Source: Arthrobacter sp. AZCC_0090 (GTDB taxonomy: Bacteria; Actinomycetota; Actinomycetes; Actinomycetales; Micrococcaceae). Taken from it: 64,000 nt of DNA. The position numbers and the translations under genes were made by a program. Each line of letters opens with the position of its first letter. Position 1 is the stretch's first letter. The DNA lies in assembly GCF_014207375.1 (NCBI RefSeq), contig NZ_JACHEE010000004.1:124001-188000 (forward strand). Direction: 5' to 3'. The notes under the pieces were generated by a model that made no database searches, was not told the origin of the DNA, and saw only the letters and a list, made by a program, of their open reading frames with translations. Shown here piece by piece: positions 1 to 50,237 of this stretch.

Positions 1-873
1 CGTAGCCAGATGCTTGGCTTCCTGGCACGGAATTTCGGTTCTGTGTTCGTCTTGGCCCTCGCGCAAAGGGCGGAAGGCCGCTCCCCTTACGCGAAGGATC
101 CCGCTGCAACCCGCGCCATGGCGGCCGACGAACAGATCCATGAAGAGGTAGTCCGCGGCTTGGCGACACGCGGCCGCAACCGATTGTCCGGCACCTTCCG
201 GGCCGCGGTATTCGGTGCCAACGATGGCCTGGTCAGCAACCTTTCCCTCGTCATGGGCATGGCCGCCACCGGTGTGCCCGCCACGGTGGTCCTCTTCAGC
301 GGCATTGCGGGCCTCTTGGCAGGCGCCCTGTCCATGGGCGCCGGCGAATATGTCTCGGTCCGCTCGCAACTGGAGCTCCTCAAGGCCACCCGTCCCACCC
401 AGGCCACGTTGACTGCAGCCCCGTCCCTGGACATCGAACACAATGAGCTGGTCCTGGTGTATCTCGCACGGGGCATGTCGCATGAAGCCGCCGAACACCG
501 GGCTGCCGAACGCATGGGACTCTACAGCTGCGATTGCGATCCCAGCCTCTCGCTCCACCCAGAAGTGGAGGAAACGGTGAATGAGCACGAGGCCGTCGGC
601 TCCGCCTGGGGTGCTGCCATCTCCAGCTTCTGCTTCTTCGCCTCGGGCGCCATTGTGCCGATCCTGCCGTTCCTCTTCGGCATGACGGGCTTCGCTGCGC
701 TGGCTGTGGCCGGTACGCTGGTGGGCATCGCGCTTCTGTCGACTGGCGCCGTCGTCGGCCTGTTGTCCGGAACTTCACCGCTGACCCGCGGCCTCCGGCA
801 GCTCGCCATCGGACTCGGTGCGGCCGCGGCCACATATGGGCTGGGCCTCGTCTTCGGCGCTGTCATCGGTTAG
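1..873 (+). CDS. VIT/CCC1-family metal transporter, 5' end outside the window
   Basis: Integral membrane protein of the VIT1/CCC1 family, whose members move iron or manganese out of the cytosol. The reading frame is open to the left edge, so the first ATG visible at base 10 is probably internal. About 287 residues are present. The segment AVFGANDGLVSNLSLVMGMA is the characteristic first family helix, followed by GLLAGALSMGAGEYVSVRSQ. Further hydrophobic helices follow the acidic middle loop. Before the first helix there is a short stretch (EQIHEEVVRGL) that looks like the tail of the N-terminal ferritin-like domain found in the longer bacterial members. That would explain a start upstream of this window. 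Family confident; metal unknown. Confidence 0.85.
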   Translation, partial: RSQMLGFLARNFGSVFVLALAQRAEGRSPYAKDPAATRAMAADEQIHEEVVRGLATRGRNRLSGTFRAAVFGANDGLVSNLSLVMGMAATGVPATVVLFSGIAGLLAGALSMGAGEYVSVRSQLELLKATRPTQATLTAAPSLDIEHNELVLVYLARGMSHEAAEHRAAERMGLYSCDCDPSLSLHPEVEETVNEHEAVGSAWGAAISSFCFFASGAIVPILPFLFGMTGFAALAVAGTLVGIALLSTGAVVGLLSGTSPLTRGLRQLAIGLGAAAATYGLGLVFGAVIG

Positions 874-34822: not shown

Positions 34823-35260
34823 ATGAGCGCCAGCCTAGCGACACGCCGCAGGCCCAGGGACATCGTGCTGCGGCTGCTTGTCGTGACAGCCTTGGTCATC
34901 GACGCGGTGGTGCATTGGCAGCTTGCCCCCGGCTACCAGTTGGCTGCCCCGGCCGGAATCGGGCAAGGCAACTTGTTTCGCCTTGAAGCGGTCGCCGCGG
35001 TTCTCGTTGGCCTGTACGTCCTGGTGCGCGGCAGCCGACCGGCCTACGCGGCCGCCCTGCTCGTCGCCGGGAGCGCCTTCATAGCCGTCCTCCTGTACCG
35101 GTATGTCGACATACCGGCCCTAGGTCCGATCCCGTCCATGTACGAGCCCGTATGGTTTTTCGAGAAGGCCCTCAGCGCCGTCGCCGAAGGACTCGGCGCG
35201 GCCCTGGCAGGTGTCGGCTTCCTCAGGCAACGCGGTAGCGCCCGGCGTCGCCGGCGCTGA
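34823..35260 (+). CDS. Membrane protein of unknown function
   Basis: 145 residues with about four hydrophobic segments (VLRLLVVTALVIDAVVHWQL, LEAVAAVLVGLYVLV, YAAALLVAGSAFIAVLLYRY, ALSAVAEGLGAALAGVGFL) and a strongly basic end, RQRGSARRRRR. It starts 10 bp after the cupredoxin gene and is probably cotranscribed with it, so it may be its membrane partner. I do not recognise the family. Confidence 0.7.
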   Translation: MSASLATRRRPRDIVLRLLVVTALVIDAVVHWQLAPGYQLAAPAGIGQGNLFRLEAVAAVLVGLYVLVRGSRPAYAAALLVAGSAFIAVLLYRYVDIPALGPIPSMYEPVWFFEKALSAVAEGLGAALAGVGFLRQRGSARRRRR

Positions 35261-35280
35261 GACACAAGGTTCTGATGACT

Positions 35281-35300
35281 GGACATGTCCCCAAAGTGCG
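35281..35300. repeat. Fragment of the GGACATG repeat
   Basis: CTGGACATGTCCCCAAAG starts around 35279. It is only a short piece of the hairpin family seen at 2.0, 31.2 and 32.2 kb. Confidence 0.4.
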
Positions 35301-35336
35301 CCCGTAAGCGGCGCAAAACACCCAGCTCCGGCACCC

Positions 35337-35364
35337 TTGACCAGCCCAAGGCTCCTGCTATCAT
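35337..35364 (+). promoter_or_regulatory. Promoter of the inositol-region GntR gene
   Basis: TTGACC (35337-35342), 16 bp, TATCAT (35359-35364). The start point would fall near 35371, directly before the operator-like site at 35375. Confidence 0.55.
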
Positions 35365-35374
35365 CGATAAAGCA

Positions 35375-35413
35375 GTATGTCCTATCAAGCGAACATGAGC
35401 GGACATGCTGCCA
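35375..35413. promoter_or_regulatory. Operator-like site upstream of the GntR gene
   Basis: GTATGTCCTATCAAG (35375-35389) differs by one base from the TATGTCCTGTCAA sequence found before iolC and the 46.9-kb dehydrogenase. It is also the left arm of a loose inverted repeat, GCAGTATGTCC and GGACATGCTGC (10 of 11 bases paired). The position just after the promoter suggests autorepression. Confidence 0.5.
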
Positions 35414-35449
35414 CGTTCGGGATAGTCCCGGAACACGAGGGAGCATGCA

Positions 35450-36190
35450 ATGGCGAATCAACTTGGCCTCACTATCGACCGCTCTTCCCCCGTGCCCTTG
35501 TACCACCAGGTGGTCCAGGGCATCGAGGCCGCCATCCACAGCGGAGTGTTGGAGCCCGGCAGCCGTTTGGACAACGAGATAGACCTCGCCGCCCAGCTCA
35601 ACCTCTCCCGGCCCACCATGCGCAAGGCCATGGATGAACTCGTCCGCTCGGGCCTGTTGGTCCGCAAGCGTGGCGTCGGCACGCAGGTGGTGTCGAGCCA
35701 GGTCCGCCGGCCCCTGGAGCTCTCCAGCCTCTACGACGATCTGACCAACAACGGCAAGAAGCCCACCACGGAGGTCCTCAGCTTCTCGCACATGGAGGCA
35801 GACGCGGCCACGCTGACCGCCCTCCAACTGCCGGCCGGCTCCAAGGTTTACCACTTCACCCGCCTCCGCAAAGTGGGAGGCAAGCCGCTCGCGCTCATGG
35901 AGAACTGGGTCCGGGACGACATCGCCACCATGGACGAGTCCATGCTCGCAGCGGAAGGCCTCTACGCTATCCTGCGCCGCGGCGGCGTCAACTTCCGCCT
36001 CGCCTCGCAGCGAATCGGCGCCATGATCGCCAACGACTACCAGGCCCCGCTCTTGGAGGCGGAGGTCGGTTCGGCTTTGGTCACCATGGAGCGCACCGCC
36101 GTCGACGACACCGGACGCATGGTCGAGACCGGCCACCACGTGTACCGGGCGGATTCCTACAGCTTTGAAATGACACTCGTACAGCGCTAA
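35450..36190 (+). CDS. GntR/UTRA regulator, probable inositol regulator
   Basis: 246 residues. The winged helix (PVPLYHQVVQGIEAAIHSGV, AAQLNLSRPTMRKAMDELVR, RKRGVGTQVVS) precedes a UTRA ligand-binding domain (YHFTRLRKVGGKPLALMENW; FRLASQRIGAMIANDYQAPL). It starts 18 bp before iolB on the same strand. The operator motif in its own promoter recurs ahead of five other inositol-region units, so it is the likely regulator of the region. In Corynebacterium glutamicum the inositol regulator IolR is also a GntR protein. Effector unknown. Confidence 0.85.
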   Translation: MANQLGLTIDRSSPVPLYHQVVQGIEAAIHSGVLEPGSRLDNEIDLAAQLNLSRPTMRKAMDELVRSGLLVRKRGVGTQVVSSQVRRPLELSSLYDDLTNNGKKPTTEVLSFSHMEADAATLTALQLPAGSKVYHFTRLRKVGGKPLALMENWVRDDIATMDESMLAAEGLYAILRRGGVNFRLASQRIGAMIANDYQAPLLEAEVGSALVTMERTAVDDTGRMVETGHHVYRADSYSFEMTLVQR

Positions 36191-36208
36191 CGCAAGGACT
36201 TTAACTCC

Positions 36209-37102
36209 ATGGCCAATTGGGTCTATCCATTGGGAACCGCCAACGACGGCGATTGGGACATTTCGCTCGGAACCTCCGATTCCGCCTTGGCCGTGGATGG
36301 TTGGGCCCACACCGGGATCAAGGTCGCCACGCTCGCCGCGGGCACCGCCGTCGAGCTCCCCGCCGCTGCGGAGGAGCGGATCGTTGTGCCGCTCAACGGC
36401 GCCTTCACGGTGACGGTCGACGACGTCGAGTATCCCCTCGCGGGGCGGGCGTCGGTTTTCCACGGACCCAGCGACGTCCTGTATTCCGGCACGAACACTG
36501 CTGTCACTATCAGTTCGCCCGACGGCGGCCGCGTCGCCGTCGCAACCGCCCCCGCCCACGCTTCGTATCCCACCCGGCTGGTCACCGCCGCGGAAACCCC
36601 TGTTGAGCTGCGTGGCGCAGGCAATTGCTCGCGCCAGGTCCACAACTTCGGCACTCCTGCCGCCCTCGAGGCGGACCGTTTCATCGTCTGCGAAGTGCTC
36701 ACCCCCGCGGGCAACTGGTCCTCCTATCCCCCGCACAAGCATGATGAGGAAAAGGACGGCGAGACGGAACTCGAGGAGATCTACTATTTCGAGACCCGGG
36801 TGGCCGAAGGCTCCGGCGCCCCTGCTGACGCCGATGCGATCGGCTACCAGCGCGTCTACGCTTCCGATGACCGTCCGATCGACGTTGCGGCGGAGGTTCG
36901 CACAGGCGACGTCGTGCTGGTTCCCTATGGTTGGCACGGTCCCGCCATGGCTGCTCCCGGCTACGACCTGTACTACCTGAACGTCATGGCCGGCCCGGGC
37001 CCGGTGCGTGAATGGCTCATCAGCGACGACCCCCACCACGGGTGGGTGCGGCAGAGCTGGGATGGACAGGACATCGACCCCCGCTTGCCGTTCGGCGCCT
37101 GA
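36209..37102 (+). CDS. iolB: 5-deoxy-glucuronate isomerase
   Basis: 297-residue bicupin that isomerises 5-deoxy-D-glucuronate to 5-dehydro-2-deoxy-gluconate in inositol breakdown. The C-terminal cupin has the metal site in SSYPPHKHDEEKDGETELEE and the distant His in LVPYGWHGPAMAAPGYDLYY. Length is normal. It is transcribed with the GntR gene and ends at a terminator. Confidence 0.95.
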   Translation: MANWVYPLGTANDGDWDISLGTSDSALAVDGWAHTGIKVATLAAGTAVELPAAAEERIVVPLNGAFTVTVDDVEYPLAGRASVFHGPSDVLYSGTNTAVTISSPDGGRVAVATAPAHASYPTRLVTAAETPVELRGAGNCSRQVHNFGTPAALEADRFIVCEVLTPAGNWSSYPPHKHDEEKDGETELEEIYYFETRVAEGSGAPADADAIGYQRVYASDDRPIDVAAEVRTGDVVLVPYGWHGPAMAAPGYDLYYLNVMAGPGPVREWLISDDPHHGWVRQSWDGQDIDPRLPFGA

Positions 37103-37138
37103 GGCAACTCGGCGGCACGCGCCATTGGAACTCATCGC

Positions 37139-45717: not shown

Positions 45718-46728
45718 CTAGCGGGTCACCCGGGCCGTGGTACTTCGCAGCACCAGAACGGGTTCGATCAAGGTCTTCTGGGGCTCAATGGCCGGATCCT
45801 CGATTCTGGCGAGCAGCCTGTGCGCGACATCAATCCCGACAAGGTCGCTGCGGTTGTCCACTGAGGTGAGGTCCAGGTACCTCGACTTGGCCAACGGCGA
45901 GTTGTCATAGCCGATCACGGAAACGTCGCTCGGCACGCGAAGGCCCCGGGCCTTGAGGACGGCAAAGGCGCCCATGGCCATGGTGTCGTTGGCCGCGAAG
46001 ATCGCGGTAATGTCCGGATAGCGTTCCAGGAGCCAGGAGGCGCCAGCGTAGCCATCTTCCTCGGAAGTGCCTTGGGACTCGGCAATCAGAAGCTCGACGC
46101 CGGCGGCCCGGATCTCCCGCCGGAAACCGGCGCGCCGGTGGGCTGACGCGCCGTCGGCCCCTGACAGATGGCCGATGCGGGTATGGCCCAGCCCCAGCAG
46201 ATGGTTGGCAGCCATGCCGCCCCCGCCGTCGTCGTCGTTGGTTATCAGGTCGGCGCCGATCGGCACCCCCTTGCGCCACCCGGCCACCACCGTAGGAACC
46301 CCCGTCCCGTCAAGCATGGACTCACTCGGCTCCGCGGCAATGACAAGCGCGTCAACATGCAGAGCGAGGAGGCCGTCCGTGGCATCCTTGATGCGGTTCT
46401 CGCCAGGCCGGGAGTCGGCCAGCATGACGTGGTAGCCCAGGTCAGAGAGGACGGACTCCATGCCCCTCAGGAGGTCCACGAACCACAGGTTTCGGTAGTC
46501 GTCGATCAACAGCCCGATACTCTTCGTCCGGTTGCTCGCCAATGCAGTCGCGGCACGGCTGGGACGGTAGCCGAGCTCCGAAATTGCCGCCTGGACGGCT
46601 TCACGGCGCTTGTCGCTAACCCTCTCCGGCGACTGCAACACCAAGGACACCAACGACGGCGAGACGCCGGCATGTTTGGCAACGTCATAGATGGTCGGGC
46701 GGCGGGTTTTGGGACGTGTCGCGCTCAT
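45718..46728 (-). CDS. LacI-family regulator
   Basis: 336 residues. The helix-turn-helix and hinge are RPTIYDVAKHAGVSPSLVSL and RREAVQAAISELGYRPSRAA, followed by a sugar-binding-type domain (IGLLIDDYRNLWFVDLLRGM, FAANDTMAMGAFAVLKARGL). It lies between the importer genes and the divergent dehydrogenase at 46885. It may add substrate-specific control on top of the GntR protein. The CGTTAACG palindrome at 42374 is a possible binding site. Confidence 0.85.
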   Translation of the reverse strand: MSATRPKTRRPTIYDVAKHAGVSPSLVSLVLQSPERVSDKRREAVQAAISELGYRPSRAATALASNRTKSIGLLIDDYRNLWFVDLLRGMESVLSDLGYHVMLADSRPGENRIKDATDGLLALHVDALVIAAEPSESMLDGTGVPTVVAGWRKGVPIGADLITNDDDGGGGMAANHLLGLGHTRIGHLSGADGASAHRRAGFRREIRAAGVELLIAESQGTSEEDGYAGASWLLERYPDITAIFAANDTMAMGAFAVLKARGLRVPSDVSVIGYDNSPLAKSRYLDLTSVDNRSDLVGIDVAHRLLARIEDPAIEPQKTLIEPVLVLRSTTARVTR

Positions 46729-46774: not shown

Positions 46775-46803
46775 TTGACAGGACATACTCACATGGTTAG
46801 GCT
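46775..46803 (+). promoter_or_regulatory. Promoter with embedded operator before the 46.9 kb dehydrogenase
   Basis: TTGACA (46775-46780), 17 bp, TAGGCT (46798-46803). The 12-mer TTGACAGGACAT covers the -35 box and is identical to the one in the iolC promoter on the other strand. Confidence 0.6.
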
Positions 46804-46884
46804 TTGAGTCCAGTGCTAAATTGTAGCGCTCCAAAATGCCAGAGGGGTGTTCGGCACCCAGGCTGAATTTCGAAGGAGAAATCA

Positions 46885-48063
46885 ATGGCTGAGAGCCTAG
46901 GGGTCGCCGTCATCGGCGCAGGAATGGCCGGCAAGGCACACGCGGCGGCGTACCGCACAGCGTCTACCCTTTACAGCCCGGCGCTTCCGCCGGTGCGCCT
47001 CGTATCGATCGGCGACGTGAACGCGGAGTTCGGATCCCTCGCTGCCCGCCGATTCGGCTACGAACGCAATGACACCTCGTGGCAGGCGATCGCAGAAGCG
47101 GACGACATCGACGTCGTGAGCGTGGTCATCGCGAACTCCCTCCACCGCGAGGTGGTCGAGGGTCTCCTCGCCGCAGGTAAGCATGTCCTCTGCGAGAAGC
47201 CACTGAGCGACTCCCTCGAGGACGCCCGTGCCATGGCGGAGGCCGCCCGCAACTCTTCAAGCATCGCGCGCATTGGCTTCACCTTCCGCCGCACGCCCGG
47301 CATCGCCTACATCCGCGACCTCATCCACAACGGGGTACTCGGAAACGTCCTGCACTTCAGCGGCCGCTACTGGACGGACTACGGATTCAGCCCCTCGGCT
47401 CCCATGAGCTGGCGCTACAAAGGCGGCCCCGGCTCAGGTGCGCTGGCCGACGTCGGAAGCCACCTGGCGTACGTCTCCGAGTTCCTTTGCGGCGACATCA
47501 AGTCCATCACCGGTGGCCGCCTCAGCACCGTGATCGGCAAGCGCCCGCTGCCGCTCGGCGCTGTCATGGGACACGACCACGCAGCGGTGAGCGACACCTT
47601 TGAGGCTGTTGAGAACGACGACTACGCGGCCTTCAACGCGGAGTTCGAAAGCGGAGCGGGAAGCTTCGAGGTCTCCCGCGTTGCCGCCGGGCACGCCAAC
47701 AGCCTCAACTTCGAAGTGTTCTGCGAGAACGGCGCCGCCAAGTTCGACCAGCGCCGCCCCTCCGAAATCCAGCTGTTCCTCAACGATGGCTCGGGCAACG
47801 AGAACGGCTACCGCCAGGTCATCCTCGGCCCGGGCCATCCCTACATCGCCGGCGGCCTCGCCATGGACGCTCCCGAGGTCGGATTCGGCCAGAACGACGC
47901 CTTCGGCTACCAGGCCCGGGCGTTCCTCGAAGAGGTTGCCGGCCTTCCGGAGGCCGAGTCCCTCCCGCGCTGCGCGACGTTCGACGAGGGCGTGCGCAAC
48001 ATGGAGCTGCTCGGCGCCGTCACCGAATCCGCGCTCAACAACGGAAAGAAAATCACGCTATGA
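46885..48063 (+). CDS. Gfo/Idh/MocA dehydrogenase, glycoside 3-oxidising type
   Basis: 392 residues, longer than the inositol dehydrogenases nearby. The NAD loop is VAVIGAGMAGKAHAAAYRTA and the lysine is in HVLCEKPLSDSLEDARAMAE. YWTDYGFSPSAPMSWRYKGG and GSGALADVGSHLAYVSEFLC match the subfamily that includes levoglucosan dehydrogenase of Pseudarthrobacter, as I recall it. These enzymes oxidise C3 of a sugar ring. AAGGAG lies 7 bp before the ATG. The stop overlaps the next gene by ATGA, so the two products should work in sequence. Confidence 0.75.
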   Translation: MAESLGVAVIGAGMAGKAHAAAYRTASTLYSPALPPVRLVSIGDVNAEFGSLAARRFGYERNDTSWQAIAEADDIDVVSVVIANSLHREVVEGLLAAGKHVLCEKPLSDSLEDARAMAEAARNSSSIARIGFTFRRTPGIAYIRDLIHNGVLGNVLHFSGRYWTDYGFSPSAPMSWRYKGGPGSGALADVGSHLAYVSEFLCGDIKSITGGRLSTVIGKRPLPLGAVMGHDHAAVSDTFEAVENDDYAAFNAEFESGAGSFEVSRVAAGHANSLNFEVFCENGAAKFDQRRPSEIQLFLNDGSGNENGYRQVILGPGHPYIAGGLAMDAPEVGFGQNDAFGYQARAFLEEVAGLPEAESLPRCATFDEGVRNMELLGAVTESALNNGKKITL

Positions 48064-49079
48064 AACTCGGCGTCTACAACGCAATCCTGCACGACCGGCC
48101 GCTTCCCGAGGCCCTCAAAGTCATTGCCGACCTCGGGCTGACGGGCATCGAGATCAACACGGGCGGATTCCTGCCCGCCGTCCACGTGCCCACCATGGAC
48201 CAGATCCTCGTCTCGGATGCCGCGCGGGATGACTACCTCGGCATCTTCGAAGGCACCGGCGTCTCGATCGCGGGCCTCAACTGCAACGGCAACCCGCTGC
48301 ACCCCAAGCCCGAGATCGGTGAGAAGCACGCCGAGGACATCCGCCGCTCCATCCGACTCGCAGAGCGCCTCGGCCAGAACCGGGTAGTGACCATGTCTGG
48401 CCTGCCCGGCGGTGAGCCCGGCGCGACCGTGACGAACTGGATCGTGAACGCGTGGAACTCTGCTGCGCTCGATGTCCTTGACTACCAGTGGGGCGTCGCA
48501 GCGAAATTCTGGCGCGAGACCGACCGCCTGGCCGCGGACCACGGCGTCAAGGTGGCCCTCGAACTGCACCCGCAGAACATCGTGTTCAACACCGCCGACG
48601 TCCGCAAGCTCATCGAACTCACGGAAGCCACGCATGTGGGCGTCGAACTGGACGCATCGCACCTGTTCTGGCAGCAGATGGATCCCGTCGCGGTGGTCCG
48701 CGAACTCGGCCCGCTGGTTTTCCAGGCAGCCGCGAAAGACGTCCGCGTGAACACGGAGAACGCCGCCCTCTACGGTGTCCTCGACAACAGCTTCCGCCGG
48801 CTCTCGCCGGAGGAAAACCGCACCAACCTCGGCGGCGACGAGTGGGCCAACGAGTGGCCCAAGAACTCCGCGTGGGACTTCGTTGCCCTCGGCCGCGGCC
48901 ACGACACCGCCTACTGGACCGAGTTCCTGCGCGCCCTGCACGAAGTGGATCCCGGCATGCTCGTTAACATCGAGCATGAAGACACCTCACTCGGCCGAAT
49001 CGAAGGTCTCGAGGTCGCCGCCAAAGTCCTGCAGGACGCCGACGCAGCGCTCACCGAGTCGCTGAACGTCACGGCTTAG
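48060..49079 (+). CDS. TIM-barrel sugar isomerase or lyase
   Basis: 339 residues of the AP endonuclease 2/sugar phosphate isomerase fold. LGVYNAILHDRPLPEALKVI, IAGLNCNGNPLHP, KVALELHPQNIVFNTADV, VGVELDASHLFWQQMDPV and VNIEHEDTSLG supply the Glu, Asp, His and Glu that bind the metal. It is translationally coupled to a ring-oxidising dehydrogenase. In the levoglucosan pathway and in C-glycoside cleavage, related TIM-barrel proteins perform beta-elimination on the 3-keto sugar, so an eliminase is as likely as an isomerase. It ends at a strong terminator. Confidence 0.75.
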   Translation: MKLGVYNAILHDRPLPEALKVIADLGLTGIEINTGGFLPAVHVPTMDQILVSDAARDDYLGIFEGTGVSIAGLNCNGNPLHPKPEIGEKHAEDIRRSIRLAERLGQNRVVTMSGLPGGEPGATVTNWIVNAWNSAALDVLDYQWGVAAKFWRETDRLAADHGVKVALELHPQNIVFNTADVRKLIELTEATHVGVELDASHLFWQQMDPVAVVRELGPLVFQAAAKDVRVNTENAALYGVLDNSFRRLSPEENRTNLGGDEWANEWPKNSAWDFVALGRGHDTAYWTEFLRALHEVDPGMLVNIEHEDTSLGRIEGLEVAAKVLQDADAALTESLNVTA

Positions 49080-49105: not shown

Positions 49106-49142
49106 GTGGGGGCTCCATCCGATGTTCGGATGGAGCCCCCAC
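49106..49142 (+). terminator. Terminator after the 46.9-49.1 kb pair
   Basis: Perfect 16-bp stem GTGGGGGCTCCATCCG (49106-49121), loop ATGTT, CGGATGGAGCCCCCAC (49127-49142), followed by GAGTTTTG. Confidence 0.9.
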
Positions 49143-49185: not shown

Positions 49186-49311
49186 CAAGAGATCGAGAGC
49201 GAGCGTCGCTCAAAAGGGCGTCAAAGGTGAGCGAGCGTCGGTCGATGCAACGCTCGCTCACATATCCGGCCTTAAACACCAACGCTCGCTCACATATCCG
49301 GCCTTAAACAC
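49186..49311. repeat. GCTCGCTCAC repeat cluster
   Basis: Several copies of GAGCGAGCGT or its complement, then two perfect 31-bp direct repeats starting AACGCTCGCTCACATATCC and ending GGCCTTAAACAC (49249-49279 and 49281-49311). The same words recur at 58.38-58.50 kb. The cluster lies between two terminators of convergent transcription units. Confidence 0.8.
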
Positions 49312-49356: not shown

Positions 49357-50229
49357 CTACTGGACCTTGGCGATGTACTTGCCCATCGCCTCCAACTGGT
49401 ATCGGGACACCTCGTTGGCGTTGTCGTCCTCGGCGAAGACGCTGGACACCATGACCGTGTTGTCCTTGTCCAGGAAGCCGATTTCCTTGAGTCCGCCGAA
49501 GAACTCGTCCCAGTTGACGTCGCCGTCGCCGATCTTGAGGTGCTGGTGCACGCGCACGGCGTTGCCGGGCGGGTTGGTGATGTAGCGCAGCCCGTGGGAG
49601 GCGTGGTGATCCATAGTGTCGGACACGTGGACCAGGCGCAGCTTGTCCCCCGCGGCCCGCATGATGTCGAGCGGCTTGTTGCCCATGTGGAAGGTGTGCG
49701 AGGCAACGTAGACCATGCCAATATTGGGCGAGTTCACGCCACGTATGACACGGAGGGCTGCAAGTCCATCCTCCACGAAGTCGTCCGGGTGCGGGTCAAT
49801 GAGGACGTCCAGGCCCTCGCGTTCGATGATCGGAAGGAGCTCTTCCATAGAGCGGTAAAAGGCCCTCTCGGACTCCTCGGCCTTTTCCGGGCGCCCGCTG
49901 AATTCGGTGTTCACGGTCTGCACGCCAAGATCGACCGTGATCTGGATGGCACGCTTCCAGTAGCGCACAGCGGCCTCGCGAGCGTCTTCGTCAGGCCCGG
50001 ACCAACGCAGCACAGGAAGCACCGAGGCGATCTGGACGTCGGCGTCCTTGCAGGCCTTCTTCAACTGGCCCACCAGTTCATCGTCGGCCTTGGGGTGGTT
50101 GAAGAACGGGATGAAGTCAGCGTGCGGGGTCAGCTGGAGGTATTTGTAGCCGAGATCGGCGGCCAGCCTCGGGAACTCCAGCAGGCCGTGGCTGTGGTGG
50201 AACGGCGTCGGGTCAAGGGCAATCTTCAT
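49357..50229 (-). CDS. iolH: TIM-barrel inositol catabolism protein, IolH-like
   Basis: 290 residues. KIALDPTPFHHSHGLLEFPR, LGYKYLQLTPHADFIPFFNH, LIDPHPDDFVED and RVHQHLKIGDGDVNWDEFFG resemble the IolH proteins of actinobacterial inositol operons, which belong to the sugar phosphate isomerase group and have no firmly assigned step. I chose ATG 50229 with AGGAG upstream; a GTG two codons earlier is possible. It is the last gene of the main inositol operon. IolI-type inosose isomerase activity is a fair guess. Confidence 0.75.
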   Translation of the reverse strand: MKIALDPTPFHHSHGLLEFPRLAADLGYKYLQLTPHADFIPFFNHPKADDELVGQLKKACKDADVQIASVLPVLRWSGPDEDAREAAVRYWKRAIQITVDLGVQTVNTEFSGRPEKAEESERAFYRSMEELLPIIEREGLDVLIDPHPDDFVEDGLAALRVIRGVNSPNIGMVYVASHTFHMGNKPLDIMRAAGDKLRLVHVSDTMDHHASHGLRYITNPPGNAVRVHQHLKIGDGDVNWDEFFGGLKEIGFLDKDNTVMVSSVFAEDDNANEVSRYQLEAMGKYIAKVQ

Positions 50230-50237
50230 GGTCACTC

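Follow-up and report, generated by a model that had tools for sequence, protein, structure and literature searches.

An OxiB/Cg0212-type dehydrogenase and TIM-barrel gene pair as a probable inositol module in Arthrobacter sp. AZCC_0090

We analyzed a stretch of 64,000 nucleotides of contig NZ_JACHEE010000004.1 of Arthrobacter sp. AZCC_0090 (hereafter the window; the whole genome measures 4.92 Mb), in which two overlapping genes encode a long Gfo/Idh/MocA dehydrogenase and a TIM-barrel protein, called here DH46 and TIM48. The pair is probably an inositol module of the OxiB/Cg0212 type, in which oxidation of an inositol would be followed by isomerization of the inosose formed, under the control of its own LacI repressor. 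The names of the best matches point to levoglucosan, orthology points to actinobacterial inositol catabolism, and a misreading is thereby corrected: judging from the sequences, we most likely face a known type of inositol dehydrogenase and keto-inositol isomerase, with a native substrate that we infer, rather than a new sugar-splitting machine.

DH46 (46885..48063, + strand, 392 amino acids) is predicted to be an NAD(P)-dependent enzyme of the OxiB type and TIM48 (48060..49079, + strand, 339 amino acids) a xylose-isomerase-like, AP_endonuc_2-type barrel of the Cg0212 type. The stop codon of the former overlaps the start codon of the latter in an ATGA (48060..48063, + strand), as a preliminary description of this DNA had stated. 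Pfam recognizes GFO_IDH_MocA (84.8 bits) and C-terminal domains in DH46, and AP_endonuc_2 (93.3 bits) in TIM48. Our alignments retained 35 of 40 non-redundant TIM48 relatives and 29 of 43 dehydrogenase relatives after filtering for length, stops and redundancy; K105, D189 and H193 of DH46 are invariant in the latter set. A dehydrogenase gene directly precedes that of the TIM barrel in 30 of the 30 best-matching loci of the genus, in 75 of 80 named loci and in 36 of 41 further loci; this count omits L118, where the contig ends, and L119, where the TIM protein is at 39%. The named loci, to which all counts out of 80 refer, are the best 80 of 313 found. A divergent LacI-type gene adjoins 67 of the 75 named loci that have an adjacent pair.

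The counterpart of this arrangement is found in Corynebacterium. Genomes G867 and G1020 share the order GntR, IolC, Cgl0159-like protein, MmsA, IolD, IolE, IolG, TIM49-type protein, major facilitator superfamily transporter, Gfo protein at the iolW position, LacI, dehydrogenase and TIM barrel (any gene between MmsA and IolD lies outside the comparison). The G1020 proteins are 61% identical to DH46 and 83% identical to TIM48. The OxiD protein of G1020 matches structure 3euw, described as C. glutamicum OxiD (PMC9603128), with 667 bits over 326 residues, and we therefore place this genome close to C. glutamicum. In the dehydrogenase tree, from which 3 of 45 rows were left out (the outgroup IolG50 with 6 stops and two very long branches), DH46 and the Corynebacterium dehydrogenase at the oxiB position fall into one 21-row group with 100/100 support, apart from levoglucosan dehydrogenase (LGDH). 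Synteny argues that this Corynebacterium enzyme is OxiB. The oxiB gene (cg0211) is reported to belong to the C. glutamicum cluster iol1 (PMC9603128), and gene order identifies cg0212, the next tag, as the putative TIM barrel. The Arthrobacter pair thus resembles the oxiB-cg0212 block in having LacI, a long Gfo/Idh/MocA dehydrogenase and a TIM barrel of 335-340 amino acids, in the same order, within an inositol cluster and beside iol genes; the operator palindrome described below is also present in C. pacaense (L153). The two blocks differ in that the stop/start overlap seen in Arthrobacter is replaced by a short gap in Corynebacterium, and in that an ATP-binding cassette (ABC) transporter adjoins the Arthrobacter module whereas C. 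glutamicum is described as relying on IolT1 and IolT2 (PMC9603128).

We propose that DH46 and TIM48 correspond, in the Arthrobacter group, to the Corynebacterium oxiB-cg0212 block and assist inositol catabolism as an accessory module. With NAD+, DH46 would oxidize a single inositol hydroxyl to yield an inosose; its substrate may be myo-inositol, but another isomer or a simple derivative is more likely the native one. TIM48 would then move the keto group through an enediol shift of the 2-keto-myo-inositol/1-keto-D-chiro-inositol type, and the product would enter the IolE, IolD, IolB, IolC route encoded in the same cluster. The divergent LacI would repress the pair from a single operator until its inducer arrives. 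The sequences show the gene structure, the uniqueness of the operator, the orthology (through sequence and synteny) and the co-occurrence with iolD; the substrate, inducer, repression and chemistry in Arthrobacter are our inference, the activity of OxiB is taken from the literature (PMC9603128) and that of Cg0212 is as reportedly found by Ramp et al.

The regulatory region agrees with such an arrangement. The repressor gene (45718..46728, - strand; Pfam LacI and Peripla_BP_3) is divergent from DH46-TIM48. A promoter, TTGACA (46775-46780) and TAGGCT (46798-46803) separated by 17 nt, spans 46775..46803 on the + strand; a scan of the window for consensus sigma-70 promoters did not report it, and the pattern TTGACA-16..18-TAnnnT recurs in 68 of 70 upstream regions (dehydrogenase at least 80% identical, the window counted). 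Just downstream lies a predicted LacI-type operator palindrome, TTGTAGCGCTCCAA (46821..46834, + strand), present in 61 of these 70 regions and, when the comparison is widened, ahead of 48 of 74 dehydrogenase genes. It has a single exact match in the window and, likewise, in the whole genome; the LacI protein is therefore most likely dedicated to this pair alone. A ribosome-binding site, AAGGAG, precedes the DH46 start codon (46872..46887, + strand, both included), and all 70 related upstream regions have AAGGAG close to the start. Behind TIM48, a terminator scan found an intrinsic-terminator-like hairpin of 17 pairs (49106..49142, + strand), the longest stem of 5 terminator-like sites where 5.0 are expected by chance in the region. 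These features bear out the preliminary description in so far as the module is self-contained and co-translated, with an operator and a hairpin of its own. The same description placed it inside the inositol regulon: it does sit within the inositol cluster, but its operator is not common to the neighboring genes.

TIM48 nearly always occurs together with iolD. At E of at most 1e-40, 109 of 198 genomes in the window's genus and 15 of 394 in its class have TIM48; at 1e-60, so do 50 of 401 genomes of another actinobacterial family, which holds Corynebacterium, and at 1e-8, 7 of 201 genomes of Corynebacterium itself (genus g135). In the window's genus, 108 of 109 TIM48-positive genomes carry iolD, versus 70 of 89 negative ones; five of the 109 match only below 45%, and without them the figure is 103 of 104. 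In the other family, iolD is present in 48 of 50 positive versus 77 of 351 negative genomes, the two exceptions being G278 (TIM48 at 47%) and G832 (a genome 74% complete). Within the fetched stretches, 47 of the 80 named loci contain an iol core gene, and 60 contain some gene of the window's inositol neighborhood. The former figure did not change on a recount without the Cgl0159-like protein and at other thresholds; L170 is scored as lacking core genes although a TIM49 relative stands at its end.

Several observations weigh against this interpretation. The iolD gene is itself common, and relatedness among genomes inflates the co-occurrence, which is partly phylogenetic; in the window's genus, G005 has the DH46-TIM48 pair and no iolD. 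None of the iol core genes is seen in the stretches of 33 of the 80 named loci, nor any of the wider set in 20, and TIM48 occurs without the dehydrogenase in some loci (for example L088, L090, L108, L112, L114 and L117). The identities to the Corynebacterium proteins refer to G1020, which is closely related to C. glutamicum, and not to C. glutamicum itself. Structural models show the fold of DH46 to be about equally near LGDH and scyllo-inositol dehydrogenase, and suggest, together with sequence profiles, that the nearest characterized relative of TIM48 is the 2-hydroxy-3-keto-glucal hydratase AtHYD. OxiB is reported to oxidize myo-inositol in an NAD-dependent manner with a Km of 62 mM and a kcat/Km of 69 per M per s, to act weakly on scyllo-inositol and to be inactive on D-chiro-inositol (PMC9603128). 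With so low an efficiency on the first of these and none on the last, a 2-keto/1-keto isomerase partner completes no obvious route; a native substrate other than plain inositol would explain the weak activity of OxiB on myo-inositol. Cg0212 reportedly interconverts 2-keto-myo-inositol and 1-keto-D-chiro-inositol (Ramp et al., Metab Eng 2023), which serves as a lead and not as a test. Inosose isomerization, which Cg0212 is said to perform, is the outcome that the preliminary description had itself named as speaking against its proposal.

In its main form, that proposal amounts to a pair akin to LgdA/LgdB, in which 3-oxidation of a glycoside or anhydrosugar would be followed by elimination as in the levoglucosan pathway (chemistry of LgdA/LgdB1 described in PMC7676230). 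We consider it very unlikely. The resemblance is real: in both cases a long Gfo/Idh/MocA dehydrogenase stands beside a PF01261 TIM barrel and a sugar transporter (PMC7676230, PMC10066097), LGDH is the best match of DH46 by sequence in both NCBIfam and the Protein Data Bank, and DH46 has the HPY loop motif of LGDH. DH46 does belong to the longer subfamily that includes LGDH, as had been noted, but it is not itself an LGDH by the family model (NF052479), scoring 249.8 bits where the cut-off is 650. Five dehydrogenases of the AZCC_0090 genome match this model at E 1e-40; none passes the cut-off and DH46 scores lowest. It is 35% identical to LgdA, versus 37 to 42% for its paralogs in the genome. 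In LG01, a strain described as growing on levoglucosan (PMC10066097), LgdA scores 753 bits while a separate DH46 ortholog, encoded elsewhere, scores 244 bits, so that this strain holds both systems. TIM48 is likewise no close relative of LgdB1, a protein of about 275 amino acids: at 339 amino acids it is 23% identical to LG01 LgdB1 (E 9e-5), which has 271 amino acids and a beta7 His and was named by its position between the LgdC-like and LgdA genes. These differences, the Ala that replaces the beta7 His in TIM48 and the existence of the OxiB-Cg0212 block in Corynebacterium, whose OxiB is reported to oxidize inositols, leave the LgdA/LgdB-like assignment unsupported.

Assignment of DH46 to LGDH by best match was also tried and rejected, as the Corynebacterium dehydrogenase at the oxiB position scores alike (246.2 bits). 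The C. glutamicum control genome gives a match to the LGDH model below the cut-off, which is what an OxiB of the long type would produce. In the tree, the LGDH and 4h3v groups each have 100/100 support as well, and the deeper order is not resolved. Phylogeny, which the preliminary description had suggested as a check against LgdA, thus separates the two groups but does not reject a joint clade of LGDH (6a3f and LG01 LgdA) with the OxiB type, which is 7.6 log units worse (p = 0.056 in the approximately unbiased test).

Other long dehydrogenases are encoded in the AZCC_0090 genome on contigs C18, C8, C4 (370-389 kb) and C12 (loci L036, L037, L038 and L039). Those of C18 and C8 adjoin a 2zds-type TIM barrel, and in L038 a barrel of this type is next to a different Gfo gene; L036 also contains a 3-keto-disaccharide hydrolase (Pfam, 94 bits). 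The C8, C18 and C12 enzymes, 41 to 42% identical to LgdA, are closer to it than DH46 is and make better candidates for 3-keto-sugar chemistry.

DH46 could also be a scyllo-inositol (or L-glucose-type) dehydrogenase that feeds IolE directly, in which case TIM48 would be an epimerase or some different enzyme that contributes little to this flux; we find this quite unlikely. The DH46 model (predicted local distance difference test score, pLDDT, 89.9) matches LGDH with Z 48.2 (33% identity) and the scyllo-inositol dehydrogenase 5ya8 with Z 47.5 (36%), and the occurrence of TIM48 without the dehydrogenase in several loci is a further point in favor of this reading. DH46 shares with 5ya8, from Paracoccus laeviglucosivorans (PMC5969746), the long subfamily and the equivalents of its catalytic Lys/Asp/His and of Arg178. 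However, no His of DH46 pairs with His318 of 5ya8 in the alignment, where the loop is of low confidence and its motif, GPGHPY, is that of LGDH. Forcing the DH46 group into one clade with 5ya8 makes the tree 20.7 log units worse, which falls short of rejection (p = 0.09), and the two genes overlap and remain together in most named loci.

A further alternative retains the inositol context of the module and changes the chemistry of its second step. DH46 would yield a keto-inositol ether or glycoside, from which TIM48 would split off the substituent (or water) in a beta-elimination, and the resulting dione would either bypass the IolE step or feed into it. This we regard as unlikely. The TIM48 model (mean pLDDT 93.8) has 2zds (Z 33.3) and AtHYD 8ro4 (Z 31.7; root-mean-square deviation 2.2 over 295 residues, 19% identity) as its closest folds, the next reaching only Z 26.4, and a profile of 35 TIM48 relatives scores 97.5 bits with 2zds, 48.0 with AtHYD, 29.8 with IolI and 28.9 with IolE. 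Against the IolE model TIGR04379, TIM48 itself obtains 36.1 bits, the cut-off being 290. Similarity of fold does not establish function, and from rank in the fold lists, which also hold IolI, IolE, epimerases, the C-glucosyl deglycosidase 8un2 and the 3-keto-glucoside 4-epimerase 6wn6, we draw no conclusion.

TIM48 retains E168, H170, D198, H201 and E305, and all 141 distinct relatives of at least 45% identity share E168-x-H170. Located two residues after the beta5 ligand, H170 would, by its motif, be the equivalent of the eliminase catalytic His134/His143. The ExHP and DPSH (DxSH) motifs also occur in AtHYD, of the AtOGE/AtHYD O-glycoside pathway of Agrobacterium (PMC10628242; 8ro4). These motifs, the position of H170 and the nearness of 2zds and AtHYD speak for an elimination. 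In addition, a dedicated LacI with a single operator suggests that the pair has its own inducer, and the weak kinetics reported for OxiB concern plain inositols. On the other hand, the beta7 His is replaced by A224, two residues before the invariant K226-D227. All 138 distinct relatives of at least 55% identity have Ala here; between 45 and 55% we find two Ala and one His, and below 45% His in 10 of 11. The equivalent motif is HVHLKD in LG01 LgdB1 and FHVKD in AtHYD, which retains the His, while 2zds has Asp. In AtOGE, the beta7 His189 is reported to bind the metal, and activity of the H189A mutant to fall below 0.1% (PMC10628242). Matched through the KD motif, the Ala of TIM48 argues against an OGE-like eliminase, although the metal may be bound otherwise. 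No OGE-type gene was recognized beside the pair, and no glycosidase or demethylase among the 23 annotated window proteins. A rule separating eliminases from isomerases by His or Glu at beta5 was dropped because C-glycoside eliminases are described as having Glu there (PMC10628242).

There is a small chance that TIM48 and its orthologs form a variant of the 2zds/AtHYD group whose metal site has lost the beta7 His and which, with DH46 and under its own repressor, degrades an inositol derivative, for instance an O-methyl inositol or an inositol glycoside, by oxidation and beta-elimination. If so, the published activity of OxiB on inositol would be a side activity. Whatever its reaction, a well conserved TIM barrel that has lost a metal ligand essential in related eliminases is relevant to the divergence of keto-sugar isomerases, hydratases and eliminases.

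The OxiB/Cg0212-type pair stands in an extended inositol neighborhood. On the LacI side, and on the same strand as LacI, are a sugar ABC transporter and several inositol-dehydrogenase-like genes; beyond these, on the + strand, follow a GntR regulator (35450-36190) and IolB (36209-37102; 277 bits, cut-off 205). A minus-strand frame of 671 amino acids at 35120-37135, antisense to both, is very likely spurious. Rhizopine catabolism was considered and set aside: the neighboring binding protein scores 170.8 bits with the rhizopine model, whose cut-off is 420. On the other side of the pair lie TIM49 (49357..50235; a candidate IolH by position only), an IolG-like and an IolE-like gene, MmsA, IolD, a Cgl0159-like protein and IolC; a tautomerase is also encoded among the annotated window proteins. 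By eye, two copies of a 32-base tandem direct repeat are visible at 49248-49311, between the ends of two convergent gene sets.

A second inositol-like cluster occurs in the same genome (contig C10, 127000-146000; L040), with an additional long dehydrogenase, an IolD at 42%, and an ABC ATPase and a permease that are 97% and 84% identical, respectively, to the window's copies. Several genomes of Corynebacterium and its relatives (L128, L135, L136, L137, L138, L152, L153, L170 and L236) have, next to the pair, a second long dehydrogenase that is more distant, at about 29 to 36% identity to DH46. In L081 and L082 (TIM48 at 63% and 61%), the inositol cluster includes a TIM48-like gene that has a LacI of its own and no adjacent dehydrogenase. 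In Arthrobacter sp. MI7-26 (L090, 5517-10749), a second TIM48 copy of 93% identity, without a dehydrogenase, adjoins a cytochrome P450, an aldo-keto reductase, a creatininase-family protein and a GntR regulator. In Arthrobacter sp. M4 (L078, 1200-11367), DH46-TIM48 follows an ABC transporter, a Gfo-type gene, an aldo-keto reductase, a creatininase-family gene, which weakly matches IolN (40 bits, cut-off 245), and a ferredoxin reductase.

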